A stretch of 64,000 nt of DNA from Chthoniobacteraceae bacterium (lineage in GTDB: Bacteria; Verrucomicrobiota; Verrucomicrobiia; Chthoniobacterales; Chthoniobacteraceae): positions 124,001 to 188,000 of the forward strand of contig JAQGOL010000042.1 in assembly GCA_028293625.1 (NCBI GenBank). The letters are read 5' to 3'. Position 1 is the first letter of the stretch. Every line of letters starts with the position of its first letter. The notes under the pieces are model-generated. The model did no database searches and was not told where the DNA came from. It worked only from the letters and a program-made list of their open reading frames with translations. This document shows, piece by piece, positions 30,603 through 60,167 of the stretch. A program made the translations under genes and the position numbers.

Positions 30603-30624
30603 CCCCATTTCCAAACCCCCACCC

Positions 30625-31500: not shown

Positions 31501-32648
31501 GCGGCCCCACGCCCCCTTGCTTTCAAAGACGCATAGTTCGAGCCGCCCACTACCGAAACGGAGGAACGTGGGAGTTTGTTCTTGAGGCTGGTCGATTGGT
31601 TTCGCGCAAACGCATTCTTGCAAAGAGTGATTTGATCTTTGGGCCCGGTTTTTTTGACCTCCAATGTAACGGCTACGCCGGAATTGATTTCGCACATCCC
31701 GACACCACCCCGAATCAGATTGTCACGGCGATCAAGGCGATGCGAAAGCGCGGCTGCACCCACGTACTTCCGACACTGATTACCGCGGCACCCGAGCGAT
31801 TGGAACTTCTTTTTCGTCATCTGAACCAGGCACTTCACTCGAATGAAGACGTGCGTGGTAGCGTTCTGGGATACCATCTTGAAGGCCCCTTCATCAGTCC
31901 TATCGATGGCGCCCGCGGTGCACATCCTAAAGAACATGTGGTCCCACCCAGCCGCGTGCTTTGGCGAAGATTGCAAAATGCAGCCCAGGGAAATATCCGG
32001 CTTGTTACACTGGCGCCCGAGATTGAAGGCGCACTGCCGTTCATCCGCCAGCTGAGAAGTGAAGGTATAGTCGTTGCACTGGGGCATACTCTCGCTGGAT
32101 GCGAACAGATCGCAGCCGCCGTGAAAGCCGGGGCCGTGCTTTCAACCCATCTCGGCAATGGATGTCCGCAACAGATCCATCGCCACCAAAACCCGATTTT
32201 CGCGCAACTAGGGCAGCAGAACCTAAGTGCCAGCTTAATTGCTGATCGCATCCATCTCCCGGCGGAAGTCCTTAGCTCATTCTGGCGCGCCAAGGGGCCC
32301 GGACAGACCATTCTTGTTACCGATGCCATGGCTGCCGCTGACGCGCCACCAGGACGTTACACCCTCGGCGATCTAATTGCCGAAGTAGGCTCCGATAAAG
32401 TAGTCCGGCAATCCGGCACTGAAAATCTAGCCGGTTCAGCACTTACTATGGAAGCCGCCGTTTCCAACCTGATGAGCGCAGCGGGCGCCACCTTGTGCCA
32501 GGCCTGGGACGCGGCATCGCTCCAGCCGCGAAAACTGATGGGCAACATCAAAATACCGGGCCATTCATTTACGATAGTACGCCCCACCCGCCGCGGGTTG
32601 AGGATAATGGCCACCGTCCTCGCAAATCGAGTTGTCTTTTGCCGTTAA
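31497..32648 (+). CDS. nagA: N-acetylglucosamine-6-phosphate deacetylase (NagA-like)
   Basis: 383 residues from a GTG that overlaps the previous stop (GTGA), implying translational coupling. Amidohydrolase features are F-D-L-Q-C-N-G-Y (strand 1), metal-binding E in H-L-E-G-P-F-I-S, histidines in A-L-G-H-T and S-T-H-L-G-N-G, and the catalytic aspartate in V-T-D-A-M. The G-A-R-G-A-H segment after the glutamate loop is also typical. It removes the acetyl group from GlcNAc-6-P, feeding NagB. No kinase or PTS gene is in the block, so phosphorylated substrate must come from elsewhere, perhaps from peptidoglycan or chitin recycling. Confidence 0.85.
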   Translation: MSGPTPPCFQRRIVRAAHYRNGGTWEFVLEAGRLVSRKRILAKSDLIFGPGFFDLQCNGYAGIDFAHPDTTPNQIVTAIKAMRKRGCTHVLPTLITAAPERLELLFRHLNQALHSNEDVRGSVLGYHLEGPFISPIDGARGAHPKEHVVPPSRVLWRRLQNAAQGNIRLVTLAPEIEGALPFIRQLRSEGIVVALGHTLAGCEQIAAAVKAGAVLSTHLGNGCPQQIHRHQNPIFAQLGQQNLSASLIADRIHLPAEVLSSFWRAKGPGQTILVTDAMAAADAPPGRYTLGDLIAEVGSDKVVRQSGTENLAGSALTMEAAVSNLMSAAGATLCQAWDAASLQPRKLMGNIKIPGHSFTIVRPTRRGLRIMATVLANRVVFCR

Positions 32649-38200: not shown

Positions 38201-39018
38201 CCGGAAGAGGCTGGTCAGCAGTGACTGAAACCGGTTTACCCCTTGTTCCAGCGACAACCTACCCAGCCTCCACCCCTACATCGCACAGCCAAAGCCGTCC
38301 CATTCTGCTAAACCGTCCATTTCAATCGGTAGCTGAATTAGGATATGTGTTTAGAGATCTTCCCTGGAAAGAACTCGATTTTTTCACCCCGGAAAGCGGG
38401 GACGCGGCTTTGCTGGACGTGTTCTGCATCAACGAAGATGCCACCCCGGATGGAATGAATGCTGGGAAAGTAGACCTCAATACTCGTCAGGCTCCTGTCA
38501 TTCGAGCAATCCTCGCGGGAGCCTATAAAGATGAAATTGCTGCACTCCCTGCATCCGGCTGGGCGCGCAGCACATTACCCGCGCTGACTTCCAATGAAAT
38601 CGACTCGATTGCCAACGCTCTTGTTGACCGCACGCGCGACCGCGCTTTAAACCGCGGGCCGATGCGCAATGTCGCTGAGCTCGTGGGAAAACATGTCTAC
38701 CATTATCAGAGTTCCTATGGACAACCTTTCGATGGCTTTAGCGGGGATCTCAATATCTACAGCGGTGGCGTGACGGGGCCTGCAAACATTATCAAGCGGT
38801 TTCGAGAAACGGCCATCCGCGCCTTGAGCGATGTAGGCACGACCAGGGTATGGAATCTAATGATCGATTTGATTGCTCAATCGGGACGCTACCCGACTGC
38901 AACTAGAAACTTGTCCGATTTTTTGGTTGAAGGCGAGAAACGCGTCTGGTTTCACGTGGCAATTGACCGATGGACCGGAGAGATCCTGGATAGACAACTT
39001 GAGGTAGTATCTGAGTAG
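35278..39018 (+). CDS. Verru_Chthon cassette protein A (large PilX/GspK-like protein)
   Basis: 1246 residues, beginning in an ATGA overlap with gene C. A single N-terminal membrane helix (A-L-V-I-V-L-A-F-I-V-L-L-T-G-V-V-V-A-F-F) follows a short basic leader without a prepilin cleavage motif, as in the PilX and GspK-like family A of the cassette. The very long extracytoplasmic part has G-K-V-D-L-N-T-R near the C-terminus, a GspK-type helix-hairpin-helix hint, and few cysteines. It probably caps or anchors the pseudopilus. It is followed by a 40-base gap to the convergent AraC gene. Confidence 0.85.
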   Translation: MRQILRPCISARQESRKAVALVIVLAFIVLLTGVVVAFFSLTLGQRQISDRSASQTKVEILSHGALDIILGDLKQEVIAGSSAPSPGLEIYPPAASASVKPDRIGTNDLLPNLLKQSAYGEAFYSGSAYDLKNHPPSNRASSVKSDAPSVNGRLVSRERWNKPLMLPKKSEFLNDDSNVTPIDDFRAPDWVPISRNGSDSKGSMSDVLGRYAYCIYDEGGVLNANVAGHPLNRASNATRPNGMTVAQTIEISRKGSVAFADLTQIGLTRTQVDQLIGWRNYASTRPGGSLPRFQFDVDSTRTPMDRYNRMALSNITGFMTIAAGGLYHNQSDRIFTSRQELMRFLLQGITSTSLQRAKMQSALQYMSVFSRDLNQPSFSPDLLRPKISGTKPATADMQTYTGNNDSQGLDDHINPAFLTVRADRTFRRLDGTVAILGEPLVKKRFPLSRLALITPNATAPADDASPIYRQFGLSRSRPDQPWLYNHQISGRIIARLEDLKGGSREPDCVELLKAAICAGSLGKSAATDGAAGAYAHEHDISLDYQILQIFANIIDQFDADGFPTRIALSDGTEFRGIENVPYFYRYRVGTVQSKLPKPIGTGTWKPVANSPVLTESGSGIFLLLPEIWNPHDQNSTMGSPRPTDFRLIVDATEAFKKVESGGQIATEVVFTGAPANAAQLEPAHSVDSASTELLFQVTNAELYREPTFLGRAGLPTGSNLRAGLNHALRSIPESGTHGEIMEVMNTLADADSPGFLGVYLGSFPLRRVWNTSGAANQSKIYSAGTVIAKLSIPTLCVRMQYKDSFGHWLTYDQKAINAVILRSDLNGGHPGVRPYNNGVLPGLNNSWGQCSDPRTSRFGFASDIDAPRQLLDAGSDALKTSRPDRGAGAAATASGAPVMGITPSRANGSIGWAPENVSFGLSSRFRPGLLSQNSSDVLDDQRIDGKPITSAAALPLFYCDPDGIPRRGMSAYVPSGRGWSAVTETGLPLVPATTYPASTPTSHSQSRPILLNRPFQSVAELGYVFRDLPWKELDFFTPESGDAALLDVFCINEDATPDGMNAGKVDLNTRQAPVIRAILAGAYKDEIAALPASGWARSTLPALTSNEIDSIANALVDRTRDRALNRGPMRNVAELVGKHVYHYQSSYGQPFDGFSGDLNIYSGGVTGPANIIKRFRETAIRALSDVGTTRVWNLMIDLIAQSGRYPTATRNLSDFLVEGEKRVWFHVAIDRWTGEILDRQLEVVSE

Positions 39019-39058
39019 TAATAAACCCGGGAATCACCCATTGAAGTAGCTCGCACTC

Positions 39059-39946
39059 TCAGCCACGGCTGCTTTTAAGGAAGCGTTCGGGTGGAATGCC
39101 GTAGATTCTCTTAAAAGCGCGGGAAAAATGGAATGCATCCGCAAAGTCAAGTTCGGAGGCAACTTCTTTAACCATCAAGCCGCCGTCCAGAAGTAATTCA
39201 GCGGCCCGATTCATCTTAAGCCTCATCAAGAATCGGTAGGGCGTTGTGTGTCCAAATCGCTGGAAAAGCCTGGATAGATAGGCGGGCTCCACGCCGCACG
39301 CGCCGGCGACCTGCCCGATGCTATTTATCGTTTTGTAATGCGACTCGATCCATTGCTTGACGCGCTGATAAGTAGCAAGCGAGCGCAACTCTCCGGTTCC
39401 ACATGGCACAGCTCGTTCCGTAATTTTCAGAATCACCACGGGAACCAGAAGTGCGCAAATTAGCGCGCCGTAGCTACTTTCGCTGCCCCCTTCCCGTTGA
39501 ATCATTTCAAGCAGTTCAATCACCTCCTTCGGCGACGACACCTGGACAGCCTCCCACGCACCGAGCGGGCTTTGCTCAAGAATCGCTTTTGCATCGGTTC
39601 CGGTGAAATCGACATAGTATTTGAGCATCGGGCGGCCCGTCCCATCGCTTCGAATGATATGCGGGATTCCCGGGCCATAAGCGAAAGCCATCCCGGGTTT
39701 TAACCGATATTGCCGGCCGGCAAGTTCCAATATCCCCTCGCCTTCCGCCACGAACTCAATCGCAAAAAACGGAAACGTTTGCCGCTCCACCCTGTAGTCG
39801 GGACGGATCCGCTCGCATCCGCCACAGACGACGCTGAGCTTCCGGCCCGGCGGAGGAGCAAGGTCGAGATAATAGCGGCGCGCTTCGCTGACTTGAACGG
39901 AGACAAACGTGGGACGCTGAGCGCCCGCGAAGGAAGTAGGTTGCAT
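39059..39946 (-). CDS. AraC family transcriptional regulator
   Basis: 295 residues from the ATG at 39946; a TTG at 39982 is also in frame, but it would begin inside the inverted repeat at 39963, so the ATG is preferred. A cupin-like N-terminal ligand domain (F-V-A-E-G-E-G-I-L-E-L, Y-G-P-G-I-P-H) is followed by two helix-turn-helix units (I-G-Q-V-A-G-A-C-G-V-E-P-A-Y-L-S-R-L-F and V-K-E-V-A-S-E-L-D-F-A-D-A-F-H-F-S-R-A-F-K). It is divergent from the UxaE-like sugar-acid operon and very likely controls it. The inducer could be L-galactose, L-fucose or a derived acid; this is inference from neighbours. Confidence 0.88.
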   Translation of the reverse strand: MQPTSFAGAQRPTFVSVQVSEARRYYLDLAPPPGRKLSVVCGGCERIRPDYRVERQTFPFFAIEFVAEGEGILELAGRQYRLKPGMAFAYGPGIPHIIRSDGTGRPMLKYYVDFTGTDAKAILEQSPLGAWEAVQVSSPKEVIELLEMIQREGGSESSYGALICALLVPVVILKITERAVPCGTGELRSLATYQRVKQWIESHYKTINSIGQVAGACGVEPAYLSRLFQRFGHTTPYRFLMRLKMNRAAELLLDGGLMVKEVASELDFADAFHFSRAFKRIYGIPPERFLKSSRG

Positions 39947-39962
39947 ACCAGGAAAGGTCAGG

Positions 39963-39984
39963 AATTGACATGCTCTAGTCAATT
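39963..39984 (+). promoter_or_regulatory. Inverted repeat overlapping a TTGACA box, candidate AraC operator
   Basis: A perfect 7-bp inverted repeat aattgac, 8-base spacer, gtcaatt. The TTGACA at 39965-39970 is a consensus -35 for the plus-strand operon that starts at 40065, with only a poor -10 candidate near 39990. The site lies in the AraC/epimerase divergent interval, so a regulator bound here could affect both directions. Confidence 0.45.
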
Positions 39985-40064
39985 CACGCTATTTCAATTT
40001 CGAAACCCGGCTCTTACGGTGCTCAGCGCCGGACCGCTTTCCCCCCGGCCCTTTTTGCCCACGT

Positions 40065-41315
40065 ATGCTTACCCTAGAAAAATTCTCCCTTGGTGTCGGC
40101 GATCGCTTTGCGCATCAAGCGAAAGCACAGCTTCGCGCCTGCCAACTCATTTCCAAGGACGGTGCCGAAGTGGTTCCGGTCTGGAATAAATCCAATCGTG
40201 AGCACCTGTTCATCGGCTCGGAACCCGCCTCGGTTCTCGCTTCCGCACAAGCCGCCGTCAATGCCCTTGGATGGGATAAGGGCTGGCATGTCGATGCGGA
40301 TCACATCCGGCTGGAGACAGTGGATCGGTTCATTGCAAGCTCCGATTTTTTTACGTTGGACGTTGCCGATTCGATCGGCCAAGCAGCGTCAGAGGAAAGT
40401 ATCTCGGCGTTTTTGGAGCGGCATCCCGAACTGATCGGCACACTTGTAATTTCGCACATCTCCACCCCGTTCCGCACCACGCGTGAAGAGGTGCGGCGCA
40501 TTGTTGAAAAGTTCCTTCTCGCTGTGCAGGAAGCGGGAAAAATCTATCGTCATCTGGCGAACGAAAAAGGAGCGGGGAACTTCATCACCGAGGTTTCCAT
40601 GGATGAGACCGATTCGCCGCAGACGCCGCCTGAATTACTCGTGATCCTGGCAGCGCTGGCCGATGAAGGAATTCCGGCACAAACGATTGCTCCGAAATTC
40701 ACCGGGCGCTTCAATAAAGGGGTTGATTACGTAGGCGATCCGGCGCAGTTCGAGAAAGAGTTCCACGATGACCTGGCTGTTATTGCATTTGCCATAGCGC
40801 GTTACGGCTTGCCGGCAAACCTTAAGCTGAGCGTTCATTCGGGCAGCGATAAATTTTCCCTCTACCCTATTATCCGCCGGATACTTCCTAAGTTCGGCGC
40901 AGGACTCCATATTAAGACAGCGGGGACGACCTGGCTGGAGGAGTTGATTGGACTGGCGGAAGCGGGAGGGGAAGGGCTGGAGTTCGCGAAAGAAATTTAC
41001 GGTGAAGCGCTTGCGCACGTTGAGGAGCTCACCGGCCCGTACGCAACGGTTATCGACATTGATCGATCCAGGCTCCCCACCGAAATGGAAGTCAATGCGT
41101 GGGGCAGCTTGGAGTATACAGGAGCACTTCGGCACGATCAAAAAAACAGTGCTTTCAATTCCAGCTTTCGGCAACTACTGCATGTCTCCTTCAAGCTCGC
41201 TGCCAAAAAAGGAAAACGTTACCTTGATTTGTTGGATACTTATGAAGAAATCGTAGGCCGCAACGTGACCGAGAACCTATATAGGCGCCATCTCCATCCA
41301 CTTTTCATTGGCTAG
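40065..41315 (+). CDS. Tagaturonate epimerase family protein (UxaE-like)
   Basis: 416 residues, no signal peptide. The sequence fits the UxaE-type TIM-barrel family: V-D-A-D-H-I-R-L-E-T-V-D-R-F and F-F-T-L-D-V-A-D in the first half, L-S-V-H-S-G-S-D-K-F-S-L-Y and I-K-T-A-G-T-T-W-L-E in the second, then Y-R-R-H-L near the end. UxaE converts D-tagaturonate to D-fructuronate by C4 epimerisation. As first gene of an operon with an LgoD-like dehydrogenase, which can make D-tagaturonate from L-galactonate, the substrate is consistent. My family identification is from pattern memory and is not certain; a related keto-acid epimerase is the alternative. Confidence 0.7.
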   Translation: MLTLEKFSLGVGDRFAHQAKAQLRACQLISKDGAEVVPVWNKSNREHLFIGSEPASVLASAQAAVNALGWDKGWHVDADHIRLETVDRFIASSDFFTLDVADSIGQAASEESISAFLERHPELIGTLVISHISTPFRTTREEVRRIVEKFLLAVQEAGKIYRHLANEKGAGNFITEVSMDETDSPQTPPELLVILAALADEGIPAQTIAPKFTGRFNKGVDYVGDPAQFEKEFHDDLAVIAFAIARYGLPANLKLSVHSGSDKFSLYPIIRRILPKFGAGLHIKTAGTTWLEELIGLAEAGGEGLEFAKEIYGEALAHVEELTGPYATVIDIDRSRLPTEMEVNAWGSLEYTGALRHDQKNSAFNSSFRQLLHVSFKLAAKKGKRYLDLLDTYEEIVGRNVTENLYRRHLHPLFIG

Positions 41316-41321
41316 ACCATT

Positions 41322-42140
41322 ATGCGCACTGCCATTACTATTTCGCTTGTTTCCCAGGCAAAAGGCGGCCCTTTTGTTTTTTGGGACGATTTGAATTACG
41401 CCTGCGAAACTGCCTCCGCTCTCGGATTCGACGCAATCGAGGTCTTTCCGACCGCCGCCGCAGCCATAGACCGACCTGCGCTAAAGGCTATGCTCTCCCG
41501 ATATAACCTGAAAATCGCAGCAATAGGAACCGGAGGCGGATGGGTTGTCAACAAATGGCACTTGCTCCACGCCGACAGCGCAATCCGGGATTGTTCAATG
41601 CAATTCATCCGCGAAATAGTAGACCTCGCCGGAGAGTTCAGTGCGCCCGCTATCGTCGGTTCGATGCAAGGCCGGGTGGAAGATGGAATCGGCAGGGAAC
41701 AAAGCCTGCAAATATTGCGGGAAGCTTTTAATGACCTCGGTCAACATGCGGCGCGCCATGGTGTCCCCCTGCTCTATGAGCCGCTTAACCGGTATGAAAC
41801 AAACTTGTTCAATCGTGTAGGCGATGCCGCTGATTTCCTCGATTCGCTCAATACACACAACGTCAAGATCCTCGCTGATCTCTTTCACATGAATATCGAG
41901 GAGGCATCCATCGCGGATGCAATTCGGGAAGCTGCCCGGCATATTGGGCATGTTCACTTTGCCGACAGCAACCGCCGCGCGGTTGGCATGGGCCATACCG
42001 ATATGAAGCCAATCATCGCCGCGCTCAAGGAGATCGGATACGACGGCTATCTTTCGGGCGAAATACTGCCACTGCCTGACTCACATGCGGCTGCGGCCCA
42101 GACTGCGCGAGCTTTACAACTTCTACTTGGCAGCCATTGA
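41322..42140 (+). CDS. TIM-barrel sugar epimerase/isomerase (D-psicose 3-epimerase-like)
   Basis: 272 residues, ATG six bases after the epimerase stop. A TIM barrel with the metal site of tagatose/psicose 3-epimerases and hydroxypyruvate isomerases: E in L-L-Y-E-P-L-N-R-Y-E, D in L-A-D-L-F-H-M-N, H in I-G-H-V-H-F-A-D-S-N, and E in L-S-G-E-I-L. It epimerises or isomerises a ketose or keto acid with a divalent metal. In this operon it may act on a side product or on a keto acid downstream of the dehydrogenase. Confidence 0.82.
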   Translation: MRTAITISLVSQAKGGPFVFWDDLNYACETASALGFDAIEVFPTAAAAIDRPALKAMLSRYNLKIAAIGTGGGWVVNKWHLLHADSAIRDCSMQFIREIVDLAGEFSAPAIVGSMQGRVEDGIGREQSLQILREAFNDLGQHAARHGVPLLYEPLNRYETNLFNRVGDAADFLDSLNTHNVKILADLFHMNIEEASIADAIREAARHIGHVHFADSNRRAVGMGHTDMKPIIAALKEIGYDGYLSGEILPLPDSHAAAAQTARALQLLLGSH

Positions 42141-42143
42141 TCA

Positions 42144-42590
42144 ATGCTTAAGCACCAGTTAATCCACCCCAGAATCAATGAGATACTTGGCCGTGCCGGA
42201 CATCATGCGGCCATCCTGATTGCGGACGGAAACTATCCCGCTTCAACCAAGCGAGGACCCAACGCGGAGGTTGTCTGCCTTAATCTTGCACCGGGAGTAG
42301 TAAATGTAGCTCAGGTGCTTCGCGCCATATTGACCGCTGTGCCGATTGATCGGATCAATACAATGGGCATTCCGGATGATGATCCTTATGCACAAGCGGG
42401 CGAACCGCCTGTCTGGAGTGAATATCGTCAGGTAGTAAAGGAGTCCGGGCTCGAATTGAAACTTGAACCTGTGCAGAAGTGGGATTTTTACAAAATAGTA
42501 GACTCGCCTGACCACGTCCTGACCGTTCAAACCGGCGATCAAGCGCTTTGGGCAAACGTGCTTCTGACGATGGGTTGCCGGACTCTCTGA
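42144..42590 (+). CDS. fucU: RbsD/FucU family sugar mutarotase
   Basis: 148 residues, typical FucU length. N-terminal pattern M-L-K-H then G-H-H-A-A-I-L-I-A-D-G-N-Y-P matches G-H-G-D-x-I-x-x-A-D-A-N-F-P of FucU, with the second conserved Gly-Asp changed to His-Ala. The C-terminus has W-D-F-Y-K-I-V. FucU interconverts anomers of L-fucose, so it supplies the anomer used by the dehydrogenase. L-galactose differs from L-fucose only by a 6-hydroxyl and is a plausible alternative substrate. Start follows the previous stop by three bases. Confidence 0.85.
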   Translation: MLKHQLIHPRINEILGRAGHHAAILIADGNYPASTKRGPNAEVVCLNLAPGVVNVAQVLRAILTAVPIDRINTMGIPDDDPYAQAGEPPVWSEYRQVVKESGLELKLEPVQKWDFYKIVDSPDHVLTVQTGDQALWANVLLTMGCRTL

Positions 42591-42600
42591 ATGTTTTCTT

Positions 42601-43533
42601 ATGGACCACCGCATCCTTGGCAAAACCGGTCTTAGCTTACCGATCCTTTCGTTCGGGGCCTCCTCGCTTGGCCAGGAATTTCGAAAAATCGATCTTAACG
42701 AGGCGCTTAAGAGCGTGCATACCGCGCTTGAATGCGGACTTAATTTTATAGATACCTCGCCGTTCTACGGGCGCGGCATGAGCGAGGTATTACTAGGCCA
42801 GGCTTTGAAGGGAATTCCCCGCGATAGTTACACGCTTTGCACGAAGCTCGGTCGCTACGACCTTTCACATTTTGATTTCTCAGCCAAACGCGTTGCTGAA
42901 AGTGTCGACGTCAGCCTGCATCGCCTCGGCACCGATCACCTTGATATTGTGCTCTGCCACGACATCGAGTTTGTCCCGATGCAACAGATTGTCGATGAGA
43001 CGATTCCTGCTTTGCGTAAGATTCAAAAATCGGGGAAAGTCCGCTTTGTCGGGATCTCCGGTTATCCGATGAAAGCGTTCCGTTACGTGCTCGATCAGAC
43101 TGACCTCGACTGCGTGCTTAGCTACAATCAATACACGCTTCAAAATACGCGTTTTGCCGACGATCTTCTCCCTGATCTTAAGAAACGCGGGATCGGCGCG
43201 ATGAACGCCGGGCCGTTTTCTGCCCGGCTTCTTACCAATGCCACGTTGCCCGAGTGGCTCAAGGAACCCGAAGAAGTAAAGGCTGCCGCGAGGCAAGCCG
43301 CCCAATATTGCGCAAGTCAAGGAGTGGATATCGCCAAACTCGCCATTCAGTTCTCAATAGCGAACCCGGAGATCACGACAACCATCGCAGGAAGCGCCAA
43401 CCCGGCAAATATTCGAAAATGGGCTGAGTGGGCAGCCGAGCCGATCGATTTGGAACTACTCGCCGAAGTTGTTTCAATTTTCGCACCGGTAAAAAACCTG
43501 GGGCATCTCGAAGGATTGCCTGAGAATAACTGA
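42601..43533 (+). CDS. Aldo/keto reductase, candidate L-galactose/L-fucose 1-dehydrogenase
   Basis: 310 residues. The aldo/keto reductase tetrad is visible: D in F-I-D-T-S-P, Y in P-F-Y-G-R-G, K in C-T-K-L-G-R and H in L-C-H-D-I-E-F. It has the L-galactose dehydrogenase-type organisation (S-F-G-A-S-S-L-G near the start, E-V-L-L-G-Q-A-L). This family oxidises L-galactose in plants and in Bacteroides, and L-fucose or other aldoses in other bacteria, yielding 1,5-lactones. It is fourth in the operon between FucU and a zinc dehydrogenase, so a C1 oxidation of an aldose is the best inference. Confidence 0.84.
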   Translation: MDHRILGKTGLSLPILSFGASSLGQEFRKIDLNEALKSVHTALECGLNFIDTSPFYGRGMSEVLLGQALKGIPRDSYTLCTKLGRYDLSHFDFSAKRVAESVDVSLHRLGTDHLDIVLCHDIEFVPMQQIVDETIPALRKIQKSGKVRFVGISGYPMKAFRYVLDQTDLDCVLSYNQYTLQNTRFADDLLPDLKKRGIGAMNAGPFSARLLTNATLPEWLKEPEEVKAAARQAAQYCASQGVDIAKLAIQFSIANPEITTTIAGSANPANIRKWAEWAAEPIDLELLAEVVSIFAPVKNLGHLEGLPENN

Positions 43534-43592
43534 TCCTATCCGTGCCAGGCGCAGCGCCTGCACTCCGTGTTTCCTATGCCCGCTTCCTGTCA

Positions 43593-44621
43593 ATGAAAGC
43601 CATCCAACTCGAAAAACCTCACGCTTTCCGCACGATTGATATCGTGGAACCTTCCGAACCGGGCCCCGGCGAAGCACTCGTCCGCGTTCACCGAATTGGG
43701 ATCTGCGGGACTGACTACGGCGGATTTCTGGGTAAGATGCCCTTCTTCTCGTATCCAAGGATCCCGGGCCATGAACTTGGTGTTGAAGTGCTCGCGGTAG
43801 GTGAAGGTGTAGAGAATGTACAGCCTGGAGATCGCTGCTCGGTGGAGCCCTACATCAACTGTCAGCGCTGCTATTCATGCCAGCGCGGCCATACCAACTG
43901 CTGCGAAAACCACCAGACCCTTGGCGTCCATTGTGACGGAGGCATGCGGCCGCGATTTGTAGTTCCCGCGCGCAAGCTGCACATTTCCCGTCACCTTAGC
44001 TTTGATCAACTCGCGCTGGTGGAGACCCTTGCGATAGGGTGCCACGCTATCGATCGCGGGAACTCGAAACGCGGCGAACACGTGTTGGTGATCGGATCGG
44101 GGCCGATTGGATTATCTGCTCTGGAGTTTGCCAGGGTGAGTGGCGCCACAACCATCGTGATGGACATTAATGAAGCACGTCTTGAGTTTTGCAAAAAAAC
44201 GATGGGCGTCGACCATACAATCGTTGCGCGCGGCGACGGGTCGGAACTTGCGGCGCTCAATGAGATCACAAACGGGCAATTAGCCGATGTAGTGATCGAC
44301 GCGACTGGCAGCAATAAATCAATGAGTCATGCGCTTGAATATTGCGCATTTGCCGGCCGCCTTGTTTACGTGGGAATTACCCAATTGGAGCTTTCTTTCC
44401 TGCACGCACCAATCATGCACCGCCGGGAGCTCACGCTGCTTGCCAGTCGCAACGCGCTGTCCGGCGATTTCGCAAGAATCATCCGCCTGATTGAAGAGGG
44501 TGCCATCAACACGCAGCCATGGATTACTCATCACGCTGGATTTGGCGATATGATTGCGCAATTCCCAACCTGGCTCAAACCCGAGAGCGGTGTTATCAAG
44601 GCGATTGTCGACCTTGATTGA
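43593..44621 (+). CDS. Zinc-dependent dehydrogenase, LgoD/YjjN-like (L-galactonate 5-dehydrogenase type)
   Basis: 342 residues from the ATG at 43593. Catalytic zinc ligands are in G-I-C-G-T-D and G-H-E; the structural zinc lobe has C-Q-R-C-Y-S-C-Q-R-G-H-T-N-C-C. The Rossmann motif is I-G-S-G-P-I-G-L. Segments P-F-F-S-Y-P-R, C-x-x-C-x-x-G-x-T-N-C-C and G-V-H-x-D-G-G are also in E. coli LgoD (YjjN), which oxidises L-galactonate at C5 to D-tagaturonate. This gives the intermediate that an UxaE-type epimerase would use. If the pathway runs on L-fuconate instead, the product would be a 6-deoxy analogue. Confidence 0.84.
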   Translation: MKAIQLEKPHAFRTIDIVEPSEPGPGEALVRVHRIGICGTDYGGFLGKMPFFSYPRIPGHELGVEVLAVGEGVENVQPGDRCSVEPYINCQRCYSCQRGHTNCCENHQTLGVHCDGGMRPRFVVPARKLHISRHLSFDQLALVETLAIGCHAIDRGNSKRGEHVLVIGSGPIGLSALEFARVSGATTIVMDINEARLEFCKKTMGVDHTIVARGDGSELAALNEITNGQLADVVIDATGSNKSMSHALEYCAFAGRLVYVGITQLELSFLHAPIMHRRELTLLASRNALSGDFARIIRLIEEGAINTQPWITHHAGFGDMIAQFPTWLKPESGVIKAIVDLD

Positions 44622-44651
44622 CGCTCCACCTTCAACACGCATTAATTCATC

Positions 44652-45479
44652 ATGCGTCTCGACTCACATCAACATTTTTGGACCTATAACGAGGCCGAGT
44701 ATCCGTGGATTCCGAAAGGATCGAAGCTCCAACGGAACTGGCTTCCAGCGGATCTGAAGAAAGTGCAGGAACCGCTTGGGTTCGACGGCTCGATCGCTGT
44801 TCAAGCGAGGCAAACCGTTGAGGAGTCTGCCTGGCTTCTCTCGTTGGCCGACAACTCGCCTGAGGTGAAGGGGGTGGTTGGCTGGGTTGATCTGCTGAGC
44901 GACGATGTAGGAGAACAACTTGCCCGGTTCGCGTTACATCCCAAATTTGTTGGCGTGCGTCATGTTATCCAGGATGAGCAGGATCCCCAGTTTATGGCGC
45001 GGCCGGATTTCTTACGCGGCATTTCCAAGCTTAAGCAGTTCAATCTCGCTTACGATCTCCTCATTTTTCCCCATCAACTCGCTTCGGCCATCGAACTGGT
45101 GACCCGGTTCCCTGAACAGCGCTTTGTCATCGATCATCTGGCCAAACCCCAAATTAAAGACCAGCTCTTCTTCGAATGGAATCTGGATATTTGTGACCTT
45201 GCCAAAGCACCGAATGTTTTCTGCAAAGTCTCGGGTCTGGTTACTGAAGCCGATCACGCTTCCTGGGATCCGGACGATTTCATTCCTTACCTTGATAGAG
45301 TATTCGAGTATTTCGGTCCTGATCGTCTGATGTTCGGATCGGATTGGCCCGTGTGCCTTCTTGCGGCCACCTACGAGCAAACCATCAATCTTGTTGAGCA
45401 ATACTCAGGGCATTACTCCGTGTCTGATCGGGAAAAGTTGTTTGGCACCAACGCCGAGGCGTTTTACCTCCGAAAATGA
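44652..45479 (+). CDS. COG3618 amidohydrolase, candidate L-galactono/L-fucono-1,5-lactonase
   Basis: 275 residues from the ATG at 44652. The amidohydrolase metal motif is H-Q-H in M-R-L-D-S-H-Q-H-F-W, then Y-P-W-I-P-K; later H-V-I-Q-D-E-Q-D, V-I-D-H-L-A-K-P and the final aspartate in F-G-S-D-W-P-V. This lactonase family opens L-fucono-, L-rhamnono- and L-galactono-lactones to aldonates. It is the last gene of the operon, converging on the CvfB-like gene with 50 bases between. Confidence 0.87.
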   Translation: MRLDSHQHFWTYNEAEYPWIPKGSKLQRNWLPADLKKVQEPLGFDGSIAVQARQTVEESAWLLSLADNSPEVKGVVGWVDLLSDDVGEQLARFALHPKFVGVRHVIQDEQDPQFMARPDFLRGISKLKQFNLAYDLLIFPHQLASAIELVTRFPEQRFVIDHLAKPQIKDQLFFEWNLDICDLAKAPNVFCKVSGLVTEADHASWDPDDFIPYLDRVFEYFGPDRLMFGSDWPVCLLAATYEQTINLVEQYSGHYSVSDREKLFGTNAEAFYLRK

Positions 45480-45529
45480 CGGCTGGAAATGGATACATGG
45501 AAGCTGCCGCGCATTGACGTCCAAGAAGG

Positions 45530-46366
45530 CTATTCCTCCAGTTCGATTCCTCCGTTTGCGAACCGGATCCGGCGTTCACGGTAGAGCGCACCCAAGGCTT
45601 GCTTGAACGCTTTTTTGCTTATTTGAAACGCGTCGTGAATGGCGTCGGGCGCACTTTTGTCATCGAACTCAAGCCGGCCGCCATTGGCCTTTAATGCATC
45701 CATAATCTTCTCTGTAAGCGGGGCGACCCGCCGATAGCCTGACTCATTGAGGGTAAGATCAATTTTACCGTCCTCGCGGATGATTCGCACAAAAGCATCA
45801 AGCTGACGGCCTATCTGGAGGGAGGTAGGGAGTTCGTTTTGATAGAGCAACCCCCAGTGGGCATTTTCTACAATGGCCTTGTAGCCAAGCGGCGTCTCTT
45901 CGGCAATGAGGATGGCTACCTTCTGACCTTCGACATACGCTGGCGTCTCCAGGTCAAGATGCCGGTTGAGTCGTGTGGTTGCCACAATCCGGCCCGTCTT
46001 GGAATCAAGCAGGACGCAAGCTACGACCCAGTCTCCAACCCTGACGCGTCGAGCTTGTTCCACAATCGGGAGCAGCAAGTCCTTGCTAAGTCCCCAGTCA
46101 AGGAATGCCCCGATTTGCGCGTTCACGCTGACTACTTTTAAAAACGCGAATTGCCCAACAACCGCATGCGGCGTCTCGGTCGTCGCCACCAACCGGTCTT
46201 CTGAATCCCGATAGATAAAGACATCCAGGTCATCGCCCGGCACTGCCCCTTTTGGAATATAGCGGCCTGGAAGCAGGATCTCACCGAGCTCGCCTCCCTG
46301 AAGATAGAGGCCCGGGGAAGACTCGCGGATAACACGAAGAGTATTGGGTTTGCCGATGGCTGCCAT
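45530..46366 (-). CDS. S1-domain RNA-binding protein, CvfB-like
   Basis: 278 residues. N-terminal beta-rich domain (G-E-I-L-L-P-G-R-Y-I-P, D-L-D-V-F-I-Y-R-D-S-E-D-R-L-V-A-T-T), two S1-type OB folds (G-A-F-L-D-W-G-L-S-K-D-L-L-L-P, G-Y-K-A-I-V-E-N-A-H-W-G-L-L-Y), and a C-terminal winged-helix-like segment ending F-A-N-G-G-I-E-L-E-E. This matches CvfB of Firmicutes, an RNA-binding virulence regulator, and related YitL-type proteins. The bacterial target here is unknown. Start is an ATG with the family's usual N-terminus. Confidence 0.86.
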   Translation of the reverse strand: MAAIGKPNTLRVIRESSPGLYLQGGELGEILLPGRYIPKGAVPGDDLDVFIYRDSEDRLVATTETPHAVVGQFAFLKVVSVNAQIGAFLDWGLSKDLLLPIVEQARRVRVGDWVVACVLLDSKTGRIVATTRLNRHLDLETPAYVEGQKVAILIAEETPLGYKAIVENAHWGLLYQNELPTSLQIGRQLDAFVRIIREDGKIDLTLNESGYRRVAPLTEKIMDALKANGGRLEFDDKSAPDAIHDAFQISKKAFKQALGALYRERRIRFANGGIELEE

Positions 46367-49628: not shown

Positions 49629-51728
49629 ATGAGCTTCTCCCCCAATCACCGCATCCTCCTTGTCGACGACAATGCGGCCATCCATGAGGACATCCGCAAG
49701 ATTCTCACGGGATCCAAGTGCAATCCCGCCTTGGCCGCAGCCGAAGCCATCCTTTTTAACGCCCCAAAAACAAGCGCCCCTTTGCGCGTGAAATTTGAAA
49801 TCGACTCCGCCTTCCAAGGCAGGCAAGGGTTTGAAAAAGTCGTCCAGGCCGTCGCTCAAGGCCGCCCTTATGCCATGGCTTTTGTCGATGTGCGAATGCC
49901 CCCGGGCTGGGATGGCATTGAAACCATCGAACATCTTTGGCGTAGCGATCCCGCGCTCCAAATCGTCCTTTGCACCGCGCACTCGGACTACTCATGGGAA
50001 AAAATGACGGCTCGTCTCGGGATCAACGAGAATCTTGTCATCCTTAAAAAACCGTTTGATAACATCGAAGTCCTTCAGATCGCCCACGCGCTGACCAAAA
50101 AATGGGAGATGACACAGCAGGCCAGCCTCCGGCTCGATCTGTTGGATCAGATGGTCAATGAGCGCACGGCGGAGCTGAGCCGTTCCGAGGAACGATTCTC
50201 CAAGGCATTTCGTTCCAGCCCGTTTCCATTTGTTATTCAAACTTTACGAGACGATTGCTTTGTCGATGTTAACGATGCCTTTGAAAGGATGACCGGCTTC
50301 TCGCGATCGGAACTCGCCGGCCGCACCCCGCCTGAACTTAGCCTCTCAATCGATTATGCGACGCCGCGTGACCGCGATGGCGGGCAATCAGTCAGTAATC
50401 TGGACGCGACGATCACGACCAAATCGGGGGAACTGCGCCAGCTTCTTGTCGCCTGGGAACCAATCGCGCTTTCGGGCGAATCGCATGTGCTCGTGATGAT
50501 GCAGGACATCACCGAGAAATTGCGGATTGAAACCGAGCTTCGGCAGGCGCAGAAGATGGAAGCCGTCGGACAGCTCGCCGCGGGTGTGGCACACGATTTT
50601 AATAACCTGCTAACCATTATCGAAGGGCACGCCAGTCTGCAGCTCTCGACGACCGGCCACAGCAAAAGTGTCGCCGAGTCGTTTAACCAGATTAGCAAAG
50701 CGGCCGAGCGCGCCGCGGAATTGACGCGCAAGCTGCTGACATTCAGCCGGCGCCAGATCCTCTGTCCGCACGTGATTAATTTAAACGCGCTGGTCAGCGA
50801 GCTCTCCACAATGCTCGATAGGTTGATTGGTGAAAGCGTCACGCTCCGCTGCCAGCTCGATGATTTGCTTCCCCCCATTTTCGCCGATCAAACCAGCATC
50901 GAACAGATCGTCATGAATCTGGTGCTGAATGCCCGTGACGCCATGCCAAAAGGGGGCGTCATCACGATCAGCACCGAAGAAGTGCGGCGGCTGGAAGGCG
51001 AGGGAAATCCCGAGGCGCGGCCGGGCCATTTTGTCTGCCTGAAGGTAAGCGATACCGGCATAGGAATGGACGAATCGACGTGCAGGCGGATCTTTGAGCC
51101 CTTTTTCACGACGAAAGATGTCGATAAAGGGACCGGCATGGGGCTCGCGACGGTGTACGGCGTGGTGAGGCAACATCAGGGCTGGATCGACGTGGTGACA
51201 GCTCCTGGCGATGGCGCGGCATTCAGCGTTTTTCTCCCGCTTTCAGATGAACGCCTGGAGTTGTTAAGTCAGGCGGCTCCAACCCGCGTCCCCCGCGATC
51301 CGTCCAAAACCCATACACTGCTCATCGTCGAGGATGACGAGGCGGTTCGCTCTGTTGTGCGCGAAATCCTCAGCATCGATGGCTACACGGTTTTGGAGGC
51401 GGATAATGCCGACAACGCTCTGGAAATCTGGGAGTCGTTGAGTGGCGAGATCGAATTGATTCTCACCGACATGATGATGCCGGGGGCCGTGAATGGGATT
51501 GAACTGGCGGGCCGATTGCGCGCCCGAAAACCTGAACTGAAAGTTGTTTATACGAGCGGCTATAGCGTCGATCTTTTCACCAGCGATTTTAACCTTCAGG
51601 AAGGGGTCAATTATCTCCCCAAACCTTATCTTTCCTCCAAACTGCTCGATATCCTCCGCAACGCCTTTGAATCGGATCAACTCTTTCCGGCAACGCGTGC
51701 CCCCGATCTGGACAGCACCTACGCGTGA
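49629..51728 (+). CDS. Hybrid histidine kinase (REC-PAS-HisKA-HATPase-REC)
   Basis: 699 residues, soluble. N-terminal receiver: D-D in I-L-L-V-D-D-N and phospho-acceptor in A-F-V-D-V-R-M-P-P with an enlarged insert before it. Coiled-coil linker, then PAS (V-N-D-A-F-E-R-M-T-G), HisKA H in G-V-A-H-D-F-N-N, HATPase with N-A-R-D-A-M-P-K-G-G and G-T-G-M-G-L-A, and a C-terminal receiver with L-T-D-M-M-M-P-G-A. It would receive phosphate from the preceding kinase. Its 3' end overlaps the convergent depupylase gene by 10 bases. Confidence 0.9.
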   Translation: MSFSPNHRILLVDDNAAIHEDIRKILTGSKCNPALAAAEAILFNAPKTSAPLRVKFEIDSAFQGRQGFEKVVQAVAQGRPYAMAFVDVRMPPGWDGIETIEHLWRSDPALQIVLCTAHSDYSWEKMTARLGINENLVILKKPFDNIEVLQIAHALTKKWEMTQQASLRLDLLDQMVNERTAELSRSEERFSKAFRSSPFPFVIQTLRDDCFVDVNDAFERMTGFSRSELAGRTPPELSLSIDYATPRDRDGGQSVSNLDATITTKSGELRQLLVAWEPIALSGESHVLVMMQDITEKLRIETELRQAQKMEAVGQLAAGVAHDFNNLLTIIEGHASLQLSTTGHSKSVAESFNQISKAAERAAELTRKLLTFSRRQILCPHVINLNALVSELSTMLDRLIGESVTLRCQLDDLLPPIFADQTSIEQIVMNLVLNARDAMPKGGVITISTEEVRRLEGEGNPEARPGHFVCLKVSDTGIGMDESTCRRIFEPFFTTKDVDKGTGMGLATVYGVVRQHQGWIDVVTAPGDGAAFSVFLPLSDERLELLSQAAPTRVPRDPSKTHTLLIVEDDEAVRSVVREILSIDGYTVLEADNADNALEIWESLSGEIELILTDMMMPGAVNGIELAGRLRARKPELKVVYTSGYSVDLFTSDFNLQEGVNYLPKPYLSSKLLDILRNAFESDQLFPATRAPDLDSTYA

Positions 51729-53239
51729 AGATGCATTAGCTCGAGCAATTCCTGAAAAGTTCGCGCATCCCGCACAGCGGCATTAATGCGATCAAGGCCG
51801 GAATCGTGCGAGGGGCGAGAGAGGATGACGTTATGAAATTCGCCCTTGTGCTGGAAGGTGAGTTCATCCCACTGAATCGCCGTGATCTCCTGGTTGAACT
51901 TCGCCACTGCGCGGCCCCGAAAAAATGCACGCGTGGTGGCAGGTGGCTGGAAGATGGCGTTTTTGATCGCTTCCTCGGAAACAATCCGGCGCATCTGGCC
52001 CTCGCGTAGAAGTTCGAAGTAGAGTCCTTTTTCAAGGGAGACATTGTGGTATTCGAGGTCGATAGCCTGGAGCCACGGATCGCTCCAATCGAGATGTTCC
52101 GCTTCCTGAAAAGTATTGAGCAGGTAACGCTTGGCCACCCAATCGAGACGATCGCGGCATGTCATCGGATCATGGGAAAGCTCATCGAGCACCTGCTCCC
52201 ACTCACGCAGCACCCAGCTCACATCGTGATCCTCATGATCGCAATGCGCCTTGGCGGCTTCCAGATAGAGGCGTTGCACGTCGATGGCGGAAATTTTCCG
52301 GCCATCGCGCAGCTCAATGATCCATTGGTAAGTCTGATCGCGGCTGATTGATTTGGTGGCGTGGATCGGATTGGCCAGGTCAAGCGCCGGCGCATGTCCG
52401 GTTTCAATCAGTTCGAGCACGAGCGCCGTCGTGCCGATTTTAAGTGCCGTGGCAAACTGGCTCATGTTCGCGTCGCCGATGATGACATGGAAACGCCGAT
52501 ATAACTGCACATCGGCATGCGGTTCATCCCGCGTATTGACCAGCGGCCTGCGGTTCATTGTATCAATTGAACAGAGCACGCTGAAGAAGTCGGAACGCTG
52601 CGCGATTTGGTAGATCCCCTGCTGGCCCGCGGCATCTTCGCCTTCAACGCCCATTTTTCCCGCGCCCGCAAAAATCTGGCGGGTCACAAGGAACGGAATG
52701 ACATCGCTCACGATCCGATCCCATGGCACGTCGCGGCGCATCAGATAGTTATCGTGGCAACCGTAACTGTGCCCCACAAAATCGGTGTTGTTCTTATAAA
52801 GGCGCGCTTCGCAACCCGGGGGCATCTTCGTGTTCCTGCGCCGGGCGCATTCATGCAGAATGCGTTCACCCGCCTGATCCTGGGCGACAATTTCCGCCAG
52901 GGTGGAACATTCCGGGGTGGAGTATTCGGGGTGGGCATGATCGTTGTAAAAACGCGCGCCATTGGAGAGCACCAAATCACTTTTGATCTCTTCAAAAGAG
53001 AGCGGTCGCCTGCGGTCCAATTCGTAATAAGCCGCTTCGTCCATATCCTGCAGCAATTCAGTCGCCCGGAAACCGCGCGCGTCGTTGTGGGGATCTTCCA
53101 GATTGTAATCCCACTTCATCGACGCGCCGTGCTCGGTGTAGCTGCGCACCATCTCAATCGACTCCCGCACCACATCCAAATCCTCCTCTCCATCAACCGT
53201 GATTCCGTATTCTGTCTCGATGCCGAACACACGTCTCAT
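51719..53239 (-). CDS. dop: Pup deamidase/depupylase Dop
   Basis: 506 residues, normal length for Dop. The start G-I-E-T-E-Y-G-I has the nucleotide/metal glutamates; after it, D-Y-N-L-E-D-P-H-N-D-A-R-G-F marks the Dop loop, which PafA ligases lack. D100 in N-D-H-A-H-P-E-Y-S is the equivalent of the catalytic aspartate. Further matches: K-N-N-T-D-F-V-G-H-S-Y-G-C-H-D-N-Y-L-M, T-R-D-E-P-H-A-D, H-V-I-I-G-D-A-N-M-S. Dop deamidates Pup C-terminal glutamine and removes Pup from tagged proteins. It lies 47 bases after the ARC/Mpa gene with AGAAGGA upstream of its ATG, so the two form an operon. No pup, pafA or 20S gene follows. Confidence 0.9.
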   Translation of the reverse strand: MRRVFGIETEYGITVDGEEDLDVVRESIEMVRSYTEHGASMKWDYNLEDPHNDARGFRATELLQDMDEAAYYELDRRRPLSFEEIKSDLVLSNGARFYNDHAHPEYSTPECSTLAEIVAQDQAGERILHECARRRNTKMPPGCEARLYKNNTDFVGHSYGCHDNYLMRRDVPWDRIVSDVIPFLVTRQIFAGAGKMGVEGEDAAGQQGIYQIAQRSDFFSVLCSIDTMNRRPLVNTRDEPHADVQLYRRFHVIIGDANMSQFATALKIGTTALVLELIETGHAPALDLANPIHATKSISRDQTYQWIIELRDGRKISAIDVQRLYLEAAKAHCDHEDHDVSWVLREWEQVLDELSHDPMTCRDRLDWVAKRYLLNTFQEAEHLDWSDPWLQAIDLEYHNVSLEKGLYFELLREGQMRRIVSEEAIKNAIFQPPATTRAFFRGRAVAKFNQEITAIQWDELTFQHKGEFHNVILSRPSHDSGLDRINAAVRDARTFQELLELMHLHA

Positions 53240-53286
53240 GGGGATTTTCCTTCTAAATAAGTTAGTCGACTCGATGATAGATTTGG

Positions 53287-54954
53287 TTAGATGACATGGC
53301 TTACCATGCGCTTTTCAGTGCCCGCCCGAATCGGGGAGATTTTGACGACATTTTCCGAGTCGTAATCAATCAGCTGAAGCCAGTCTTCCGTGATGTCGGT
53401 CGGCGGAAAGATATCGTTTTCCGAATACTCCGCTTCAAATGAAAGCCGCAAATCCGATTCGCTGATTCCTTCGTCCTCGTTTCCCGCTATCGCGCGTTTG
53501 ATCGCCAGCCCTTTTGCACGCTCGACAATGGAAGAGATAATGGCGCCGCTGATCAGATCGCTGCGGTAGAGGATTTCCCGTTTGCCGCTTCTTAAAGTAA
53601 TGCTGAGAAACCGGTTCTCCGGCCGATGCGAGAAGCTTAGGTCGATCATCTTTTCCACCAATGCATCGGCGGCCTCGGCCGCGGTTCCCTTCTCCCGAAC
53701 CAAGGCCGGATCATACGGCAGATTGGGGGTTAGATAGATCCTGAATATTTCACGGGCGCCTTCCCGATTGGGACGGTTGACCTTGATTTTCCGGTCGATC
53801 CGGCCCGGCCGAAGCACAGCGGGGTCAATCAGGTCGGCGCGATTCGAGGCGAGAATGATGACCACCTGGTTAAGCGACTCGATTCCGTCCATCTCGGTGC
53901 AAAACATCGGCACGAGCGTCGAGAGAATACTGGAATGCCGCGTGGCGCGTCGCGTCCCAAGGATGCTCTCGGCTTCATCAATGAAAAGAAATGGCAGATA
54001 ACCTTCCTTCCGCTTCTCGCGGGCAGTGGAAAAGATCTCGCGCACCATCCGTTCACTTTCGCCCACCCACATATTGAGGATCTCAGGTCCTTTGATATGC
54101 ATGAAATACTCGCGCATCTCCTGACCGGTCTGCTTTTGAAGCTGGTGGGTAAGGTTATAGGCGGTCGCTTTGCCGATCAGCGTTTTGCCGCATCCGGGAG
54201 GGCCATGAAGAAGGAAACCTTTGGGGGTTTGATGGTCAAACCGGCGAAAAAGATCCGGGCGCAGCAAAGGGAGTTCAATCGCATCGCGGATCGCATGCAA
54301 AGCCTCCTGCTGGCCGCCGACTTTCTCCCAAGGCAATTCAGGCACGCTATCTAAAAAGTATTCATCTGAATGCGGCTGTGCGAGGACCTCCACGGCAACC
54401 TTGAAATTGGAATCCACGCGCACCTCGTCGCCGGCTTTGAGCTTGGCATCCATGAGCGCGTCGCTGCGATGAAGCACCAGGGATTGCACACCGTGTTCTG
54501 TTCCAACACGCAACCGATCGGGCCCCAGCAACTCGCTGACCTTGGTCACCGGTCCCGTCCTGTCATACCCAAGGTCACCAACAATAACGTACGCCTCGTT
54601 CACCAGCACCCGGGTGCCGCGCCGCAACGAGCGCATTTCAACCCGCGGATCGCAATTGCAAAAATAGTCGGAACCGGCCACGACAATCTGCGCCGTCTCC
54701 AAATTTGCCGCGCTTAAAAACGTTCCAATCCGATTGGCCGGTGAACTGAGCTTTTTAATAATCTGATCCATCTTCTCGATAGCCTGCCGCGCCTCGATGA
54801 TCATTTCCTCCTGCTCGGCCACTTCCATGCGCAAGTCGAGCAACTCACGCCGCAGCATTTCTCCAGGCGGCAGGGAGGCGATGAGCTGGTCGAGCTGTCC
54901 AACCACTCCCAAGTGAAATTCTGAAGAGTCGGTATTCATAGATGGTTCGTCCAT
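53287..54954 (-). CDS. arc: Proteasomal AAA ATPase, ARC/Mpa-type
   Basis: 555 residues from the ATG at 54954; a TTG at 54996 would add 14 residues, and another ATG is five codons later. A coiled coil (about 28-72) for Pup binding precedes two OB-like domains (about 75-195). The AAA core has Walker A at 251-258 (G-P-P-G-C-G-K-T), Walker B near 322-329 (F-L-F-I-D-E-A-E), a pore loop region (W-V-G-E-S near 296) and arginine fingers in L-R-P-G-R-I-D-R. It would unfold pupylated proteins. Unlike Mpa of mycobacteria, the C-terminus is S-H-V-I and lacks the penultimate tyrosine needed to open the 20S gate. Confidence 0.88.
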   Translation of the reverse strand: MDEPSMNTDSSEFHLGVVGQLDQLIASLPPGEMLRRELLDLRMEVAEQEEMIIEARQAIEKMDQIIKKLSSPANRIGTFLSAANLETAQIVVAGSDYFCNCDPRVEMRSLRRGTRVLVNEAYVIVGDLGYDRTGPVTKVSELLGPDRLRVGTEHGVQSLVLHRSDALMDAKLKAGDEVRVDSNFKVAVEVLAQPHSDEYFLDSVPELPWEKVGGQQEALHAIRDAIELPLLRPDLFRRFDHQTPKGFLLHGPPGCGKTLIGKATAYNLTHQLQKQTGQEMREYFMHIKGPEILNMWVGESERMVREIFSTAREKRKEGYLPFLFIDEAESILGTRRATRHSSILSTLVPMFCTEMDGIESLNQVVIILASNRADLIDPAVLRPGRIDRKIKVNRPNREGAREIFRIYLTPNLPYDPALVREKGTAAEAADALVEKMIDLSFSHRPENRFLSITLRSGKREILYRSDLISGAIISSIVERAKGLAIKRAIAGNEDEGISESDLRLSFEAEYSENDIFPPTDITEDWLQLIDYDSENVVKISPIRAGTEKRMVSHVI

Positions 54955-60164: not shown

Positions 60165-60167
60165 GGT

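Follow-up and report, generated by a model that had tools for sequence, protein, structure and literature searches.

A six-gene operon and its divergent regulator gene

We analyzed a 64,000-nucleotide stretch of DNA (hereafter the window) from a Chthoniobacteraceae bacterium of the phylum Verrucomicrobiota (contig JAQGOL010000042.1, positions 124,001 to 188,000), concentrating on a set of genes that a preliminary description had put forward as an operon for the oxidation of L-galactose or L-fucose. The arrangement given there is correct. Six open reading frames (ORFs), all on the + strand, occupy positions 40065 to 45479, with intergenic gaps of 6, 3, 10, 53 and 30 bp (taking 43587 as the start of the fifth gene), and an AraC-family gene is encoded divergently at 39059-39982. 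Since the same genes are found grouped in many other genomes, their clustering is not a matter of chance. Profile searches agree with the families that had been named for the six genes and for the regulator, and refine one of them, the TIM-barrel gene, to an IolO-like epimerase.

The first gene (40065-41315) encodes a short form of UxaE, a predicted D-tagaturonate/D-fructuronate epimerase (C3 inversion). The profile search that had been singled out as able to overturn this assignment confirmed it: the protein scores 183 bits against PF16257 (UxaE), well over the curated cut-off of 27.1, and is the sole match to this family in the genome at an E value of 0.001. The match does not cover the full profile. 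It spans positions 79-463 of 475, the first ~78 being absent from this 416-aa protein, and the open frame of 448 codons could add at most 32 residues, without a further start; open frames of 418-420 aa in four relatives (G007, G008, G010 and G017) are likewise too short for the missing N terminus. Identity to 16 homologues, trimmed at the match ends, is 56-79%, and that to structures from Thermotogota and Cohnella is 23-25%, with 44 of 90 aligned residues in a central block the same as in Cohnella UxaE; PDB entry 6il9 is matched with an E value of 3e-30. As modeled by AlphaFold (mean pLDDT 90.9), the protein has the UxaE fold. The ten best Foldseek matches of the model are UxaE or tagatose 4-epimerases of the UxaE family (TMq 0.65-0.81), and the best in the PDB are Cohnella UxaE and tagatose 4-epimerases of the same family, at a TMq of ~0.8.

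The second gene (41322-42140; AP_endonuc_2, 150 bits) encodes an IolO/LguG-like epimerase, predicted to interconvert 5-keto-L-gluconate and D-tagaturonate (C4 inversion). Its top NCBIfam model is NF041099, the 5-keto-L-gluconate epimerase IolO (242 bits, under the cut-off of 300), and its nearest structure is TM_0416 (E 1e-45), with which it conserves the stretches EPLNRYET, ILAD.FHMNIEE and H.ADSNR and a late Glu. The Glu, Asp, His and Glu within these conserved stretches are presumably functional residues. The third gene (42144-42590; PF05025, RbsD_FucU, 102 bits) specifies an RbsD/FucU-type sugar mutarotase that matches both the D-ribose pyranase and the L-fucose mutarotase models weakly, far under their cut-offs.

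As for the remaining three, the aldo/keto reductase (AKR; 42601-43533; Aldo_ket_red, 170 bits) is a predicted L-galactose (L-glucose) 1-dehydrogenase. The five PDB entries that match it best are without exception L-galactose dehydrogenases (E 3e-89 to 9e-76), and residues D51, Y56, K82 and H120, which we take to be the AKR tetrad, are unchanged across 10 aligned sequences. The zinc alcohol dehydrogenase (43587-44621, the listed ORF beginning at a GTG at 43542; ADH_N 83 bits, ADH_zinc_N 88 bits) is a predicted L-galactonate (L-gluconate) 5-dehydrogenase. It is 36% identical to Escherichia coli LgoD over 317 residues and does share with it the motif stretches named in the preliminary description; it scores 180 bits against NF007489 (Zn-dependent oxidoreductase; cut-off 376) and 157 bits against the IolM model, and its best PDB match is RspB. 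The last gene (44652-45479) encodes a COG3618 amidohydrolase (PF04909, Amidohydro_2, 163 bits; PDB 4dlf, E 8e-57), a predicted L-galactono-lactonase that reaches 279 bits with the L-fucono-1,5-lactonase model NF052480, under its cut-off of 400.

Candidate exit genes on another contig and the proposed route

Had the D-fructuronate formed by UxaE fed into the usual hexuronate route, as first supposed, the genome (6.83 Mb, 96.4% complete) should encode the enzymes of that route. It contains no match to the mannonate dehydratase UxuA (PF03786), which is matched in 5 of 14 control genomes; the enolase-superfamily mannonate dehydratase was not part of this search. Nor does it match PF01232 reductases, found in 7 of the 14 controls, or altronate dehydratase (PF04295), found in 5. 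We take PF01232 to be the UxaB family and PF04295 that of D-altronate dehydratase. The idea that UxaE stands in for tagaturonate reduction is supported by this lack of a PF01232 match as well as by the UxaE score. The supposed feed into the usual hexuronate route is unsupported, as UxuA is matched neither here nor in most of the related genomes searched (no match in 90 of 97, this one included); the genes described next point to D-mannonate being epimerized to D-gluconate rather than dehydrated.

These genes lie on contig C31. The first encodes a short-chain dehydrogenase/reductase (SDR) that scores 314 bits against the D-mannonate oxidoreductase model NF006132 (cut-off 281). It is followed after 48 bp, on the same strand, by a gene for a LarA-like protein, and then by one for an FGGY sugar kinase. 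The best PDB match of the LarA-like protein is 4nar (E 2e-68, vs 1e-7 for malate racemase), to which it is identical at 145 of 397 aligned residues. According to PMC7583248, 4nar is Thermotoga maritima GntE2, which converts D-mannonate to D-gluconate; that text names R41, K164 and H180 as cofactor residues, E155 as a loop Glu, and G286. All five are conserved in the LarA-like protein, as are D38, H154 and K287, whose numbers we deduced from the same text and which would be catalytic in GntE2. The loop reads E-V, and EV/S is described there as a loop feature of hexonate epimerase groups 18-20. The genome also has a match to LarC, a protein that the nickel cofactor requires.

Taken together, the genes observed, the families to which they belong, the way they cluster and the failure to match the usual downstream families suggest a route whose reactions, order and substrate we infer from families and gene neighborhoods. 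The operon and the C31 genes would convert L-galactose to 6-phosphogluconate via D-tagaturonate, D-fructuronate, D-mannonate and D-gluconate, a reading to which we assign a probability of roughly 0.68. The RbsD/FucU protein would accelerate the exchange of anomers, the AKR would oxidize L-galactose at C1 to L-galactono-lactone, and the COG3618 protein would open the lactone ring to give L-galactonate, which the zinc dehydrogenase would oxidize at C5 to D-tagaturonate. UxaE would then invert C3, yielding D-fructuronate, and the SDR would reduce C5 with the opposite handedness, yielding D-mannonate. Finally, the LarA-type nickel-pincer epimerase would invert C2 to produce D-gluconate, and the FGGY kinase would phosphorylate it at C6.

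The stereochemistry is consistent with this sequence of steps. In Fischer notation for C2 to C5, L-galactonate (LRRL) becomes D-gluconate (RLRR) by inversion of C5, C3 and C2. L-gluconate (LRLL) needs inversion of C4 besides, and C4 is the center acted upon in the IolO/LguG step. Through the IolO-like epimerase, 5-keto-L-gluconate, as formed from L-glucose, would enter at D-tagaturonate, and L-glucose is perhaps an additional substrate of the operon. We suggest tentatively, and with well under even odds, that L-glucose is turned into D-gluconate by four successive inversions, at C5 (zinc dehydrogenase and SDR), C4 (IolO-like epimerase), C3 (UxaE) and C2 (nickel-pincer epimerase).

The entry half resembles a pathway of Luteolibacter LG18, a member of the same phylum in which the genes lguABCDEF, lguG and lguH serve a dual L-glucose/L-galactose pathway (PMC12632266, 2025). 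There, LguA, LguD and LguG catalyze the entry reactions in vitro; gene disruptions impair growth on L-glucose and, lguG excepted, also on L-galactose; the IolO-type epimerase is required only for L-glucose, and the exit is via D-altronate (PMC12632266). The two systems would have in common the AKR, 5-dehydrogenase and IolO-type epimerase steps and D-tagaturonate as the meeting point; both have a divergent regulator, and the rbsD gene that adjoins lguG in LG18 has its counterpart in the RbsD/FucU gene here. The claim of an L-galactose entry leading to D-tagaturonate is supported. The window AKR is linked to LguA at the level of the family, its nearest structures being L-galactose dehydrogenases. 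Downstream the systems differ: in LG18, LguC reduces D-tagaturonate, LguB dehydrates D-altronate and LguH phosphorylates 2-keto-3-deoxygluconate (KDG), whereas we find no match here to PF01232 and PF04295, presumably the families of LguC and LguB, and UxaE, the SDR and the nickel epimerase instead. In addition, the IolO-like gene is part of the operon here. Two further observations concern the LG18 proteins themselves. The L-galactose dehydrogenase that comes closest to the window AKR, PDB 9w6y, starts MEYRKLGNTGLDVSV, one residue off the LguA N terminus printed in PMC12632266, and the published N termini of LguA and LguD are absent from all 16 regions fetched in a search for the LG18 lgu cluster.

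The exit half has its closest parallel in T. maritima, whose pectin locus is gnd-uxaRED-gntEK (PMC3750489), and whose UxaD is an SDR mannonate oxidoreductase (PMC5673643). UxaE, an SDR mannonate oxidoreductase, GntE and GntK lead there from tagaturonate to 6-phosphogluconate; the feed is D-galacturonate in T. maritima and, as proposed, L-galactose here, and the sequences are distant. LgoD of E. coli is a zinc dehydrogenase that yields D-tagaturonate, as predicted for the window enzyme, in a pathway that starts at L-galactonate, unlike the L-galactose start proposed here, and that continues via UxaB and UxaA (PMC12632266). The L-galactose pathway of Bacteroides (Phocaeicola) vulgatus, as relayed in PMC12632266, is presented without mention of UxaE or of a mannonate-gluconate epimerase.

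Each module is known, and what seems new is the joining of an L-galactose entry with an exit through UxaE and a mannonate-gluconate epimerase. The preliminary description had called the system little described in Verrucomicrobiota. This no longer holds for the entry half, reported in LG18, and stands for the joined route, for which we found no paper, itself weak evidence of absence, as the search mostly did not extend to subscription literature. If true, the route would be a further bacterial pathway for L-galactose or L-glucose, one free of dehydratases and yielding 6-phosphogluconate. It would also provide a physiological setting for GntE/LarA-type hexonate epimerases, and a testable case in which an L-sugar acid is turned into its D mirror image through successive inversions of single centers.

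Comparative evidence and competing explanations

We searched 97 related genomes whole (own genome included; 62-100% complete) and report co-occurrence as plain counts among genomes of shared ancestry. UxaE was counted at an E value of ~1e-100 or better, which retains 47 of the 58 genomes that match at all; counts of the nickel epimerase take in 57 of 59 genomes, two weak matches having been dropped, and the SDR in the 57 of 60 that exceed the cut-off. Among the 47 UxaE genomes, 43 carry the nickel epimerase, 40 the SDR over its cut-off and four UxuA. UxaC is present in 24 of them. In the other 23, UxaC is not matched, and galacturonate therefore does not reach UxaE through that isomerase; the proposed route, if true, would account for the presence of UxaE in such genomes. 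UxaE and the SDR are no more than 10 kb apart in seven genomes, UxaE and the nickel epimerase in five (46 UxaE genomes listed, G029 being left out).

A scan of named genome contigs for the AKR family returned at least 542 relatives, from which we kept 80 loci, belonging by most titles to Verrucomicrobiota and Planctomycetota, although several titles of metagenome-assembled genomes in the list, such as Klebsiella pneumoniae, must be wrong. Their gene content within the stretches examined, taken from homology-weighted gene picking and tblastn counts, includes matches to UxaE at 33 loci, the zinc dehydrogenase at 37, IolO at 33, FucU at 29 and the lactonase at 17; these counts take in weak or distant matches, such as IolO at 27-33% in L105 and L146 and a UxaE 9 kb off in L139. 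Many of the contigs break off early, their mean length being 15.7 kb and the shortest measuring 3.3 kb. At an E value of 1e-40, the AKR is matched in 61 of 236 genomes of the class. The combination of the two known modules, in part or in whole, is present in many Verrucomicrobiota and Planctomycetota genomes.

Several loci unite the two halves. In L204, from a relative of the same order (G281), one strand carries genes for a GH29 alpha-L-fucosidase family protein, the AKR, RbsD, a PF04199 cyclase-type hydrolase that may substitute for the lactonase, UxaE, the zinc dehydrogenase, the SDR (308 bits, over the cut-off), the nickel epimerase (173 bits, under the cut-off) and a GntK/IdnK-type gluconokinase (TIGR01313, 178 bits; cut-off 114). 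In L128, UxaE and the AKR are followed by the zinc dehydrogenase, IolO, FucU, the lactonase, the SDR mannonate oxidoreductase and then a PfkB kinase; L140 and L158 combine the nickel epimerase with an aldehyde dehydrogenase, UxaE and the AKR. In G090 (L059), UxaE, SDR, nickel epimerase, gluconokinase (185 bits) and UxaC follow one another on one strand, which is the same exit module, fed with galacturonate. Within the genus, the FGGY kinase adjoins the nickel epimerase in three of four genomes (own, G001 and G003); the stretch examined from the fourth, G002, did not contain it. In G002 the operon genes form two separate groups, AraC-AKR-zinc dehydrogenase-lactonase (L205) and UxaE-IolO plus a FucU match (L035).

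Relatives of the cluster also show other neighbors. GH29 alpha-L-fucosidase family genes adjoin the AKR cluster in L064 (4859-6472), L204 (1-1569) and L196, and FucP-like permease genes are found in L053 and L194-L196; these could possibly be alpha-L-galactosidases and an L-galactose uptake system. In L147 and L151 (metagenome-assembled genomes titled Opitutae/Opitutaceae), UxaC stands beside IolO-FucU-AKR-zinc dehydrogenase, with no UxaE match in the stretch examined, and L147 also has an ExuT-like transporter gene; these loci may use another exit from D-tagaturonate.

A number of points weigh against the proposed route. Contig C31, with its SDR, nickel epimerase and kinase genes, is not the contig of the window, and of the 52 genomes that encode both an SDR and a nickel epimerase, 22 have the pair on one strand within 400 bp. 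Against NF052594 the nickel epimerase reaches 190 bits; the cut-off of this model, 500, is exceeded by a protein in only 2 of the 97 genomes. The nickel epimerase also has Gly in place of N348 of GntE2. The FGGY kinase scores 196 bits as a xylulokinase (cut-off 380) and 182 as a gluconokinase (gntK_FGGY; cut-off 649). The LarC match in the genome contains one in-frame stop. Of the 47 UxaE genomes, seven lack an SDR over the cut-off and four the nickel epimerase, and at 47 of the 80 AKR loci the stretch examined is without a UxaE match, in some cases because the contig ends. Since the 97 genomes are related, Fisher values are not independent tests, and with completeness as low as 62% absences may be gaps. 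The genome also encodes UxaC, so its UxaE may serve galacturonate too. Lastly, the PfkB kinase of L128 is similar to the kinase portion of a KDPG-aldolase fusion, a hint that this lineage may use a KDG route.

LarC (PF01969), located at G000:C38:272229-273683, and its counterparts in many relatives frequently carry a single in-frame stop or are divided between two ORFs. A programmed frameshift in LarC production would account for this.

We weighed several alternatives to the L-galactose-to-6-phosphogluconate route; they are not mutually exclusive, as substrate, exit route and order of steps were graded separately. The one that survives best, although we consider it unlikely, keeps the usual exit, in which D-fructuronate made by UxaE passes through UxuB and UxuA to KDG and on to KdgK and KDPG aldolase. 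The SDR mannonate oxidoreductase, the two KDPG/KHG aldolase family proteins of the genome and the KDG-kinase-like PfkB gene within the L128 run would all suit it. Against it stand the lack of UxuA already described and the position of the SDR, which precedes a GntE-like epimerase and a sugar kinase. An improbable variant concerns the order of the last two steps of the proposed route: mannonate would be phosphorylated first and the phosphate ester epimerized next, an order demonstrated in extracts of Lactobacillus suebicus (PMC6978723) and compatible with a kinase that is no clear gluconokinase. The nearest relative of the epimerase, GntE2, has free D-mannonate as its substrate, and L204 carries a GntK/IdnK-type gluconokinase over its cut-off, both of which argue for epimerization before phosphorylation.

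L-fucose (6-deoxy-L-galactose), which the preliminary description had treated as an equal alternative, would undergo the same first steps, and we regard it as very unlikely to be the substrate. The names in its favor are those of neighbors: a FucU-type mutarotase, the L-fucono-1,5-lactonase model and, in relatives, GH29 alpha-L-fucosidase family and FucP-like permease genes. Gluconokinases act at the C6 hydroxyl, which L-fuconate derivatives lack; a kinase acting at C6 therefore counts against them. Moreover, profile searches of the window cluster genes revealed no fuconate dehydratase or enzyme for L-2-keto-3-deoxyfuconate (L-KDF), the five top AKR structures are all L-galactose dehydrogenases, and LguA of LG18 is inactive with L-fucose (PMC12632266).

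The least probable alternative is an inositol route as in Thermotoga, in which IolG, IolM and IolN would lead to 5-keto-L-gluconate and on to IolO and UxaE, the AKR and lactonase having side functions: the IolO-like gene within the operon, the IolM match of the zinc dehydrogenase and the pairing on contig C8 of an IolG-like gene with a second zinc dehydrogenase (IolM, 160 bits) speak for it, whereas the window zinc dehydrogenase fits NF007489 better and resembles LgoD, no cluster protein matches an IolN model, the AKR and lactonase suit aldose oxidation, and many relatives pair UxaE with the AKR without an IolO match. An exit through UxaB and altronate was rejected, neither PF01232 nor altronate dehydratase being matched in the genome.

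Regulatory region and other loci

The divergent regulator gene (39059-39982, - strand; PF12833, 75 bits; PF02311, 41 bits) encodes an AraC-family protein that is probably an activator of the operon, and a divergent AraC gene also adjoins the cluster in relatives (e.g., L104, L037, L046 and L114). From its position between the two divergent genes, the intergenic region 39983-40064 probably comprises the regulator site and promoter. A scan for the sigma-70 consensus found no site within 39983-40064, and two in 38900-45700 vs 4.3 expected; a terminator scan of 38900-45700 returned 11 terminator-like sites vs 9.0 expected, that is, chance level.

Elsewhere in the genome, L082 (G000:C8:40000-59999) encodes on one strand an IolG-like dehydrogenase (267 bits; cut-off 355), a second zinc dehydrogenase, an FGGY kinase and, further on, a KDPG aldolase; judged by these families, it is another putative sugar or inositol oxidation locus. 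Within the window, one run at 29751-32648 contains genes for a glucosamine-6-phosphate isomerase family protein, a second TIM-barrel epimerase-like protein and a NagA-like protein (by eye; no Pfam match). On the - strand, at 51719-54996, a Pup ligase family protein (PF03136, 554 bits) adjoins a proteasomal-type AAA ATPase (PF00004, PF17758 and PF16450), a predicted pupylation-type gene pair. Also on the - strand, positions 55113-63982 encode a WD40-like repeat protein (by eye), a PSCyt2/PSD1 (DUF1549/DUF1553) protein and a DUF1501 protein. Clusters of PSCyt2/PSD1 and DUF1501 genes are common in Planctomycetota and Verrucomicrobiota.

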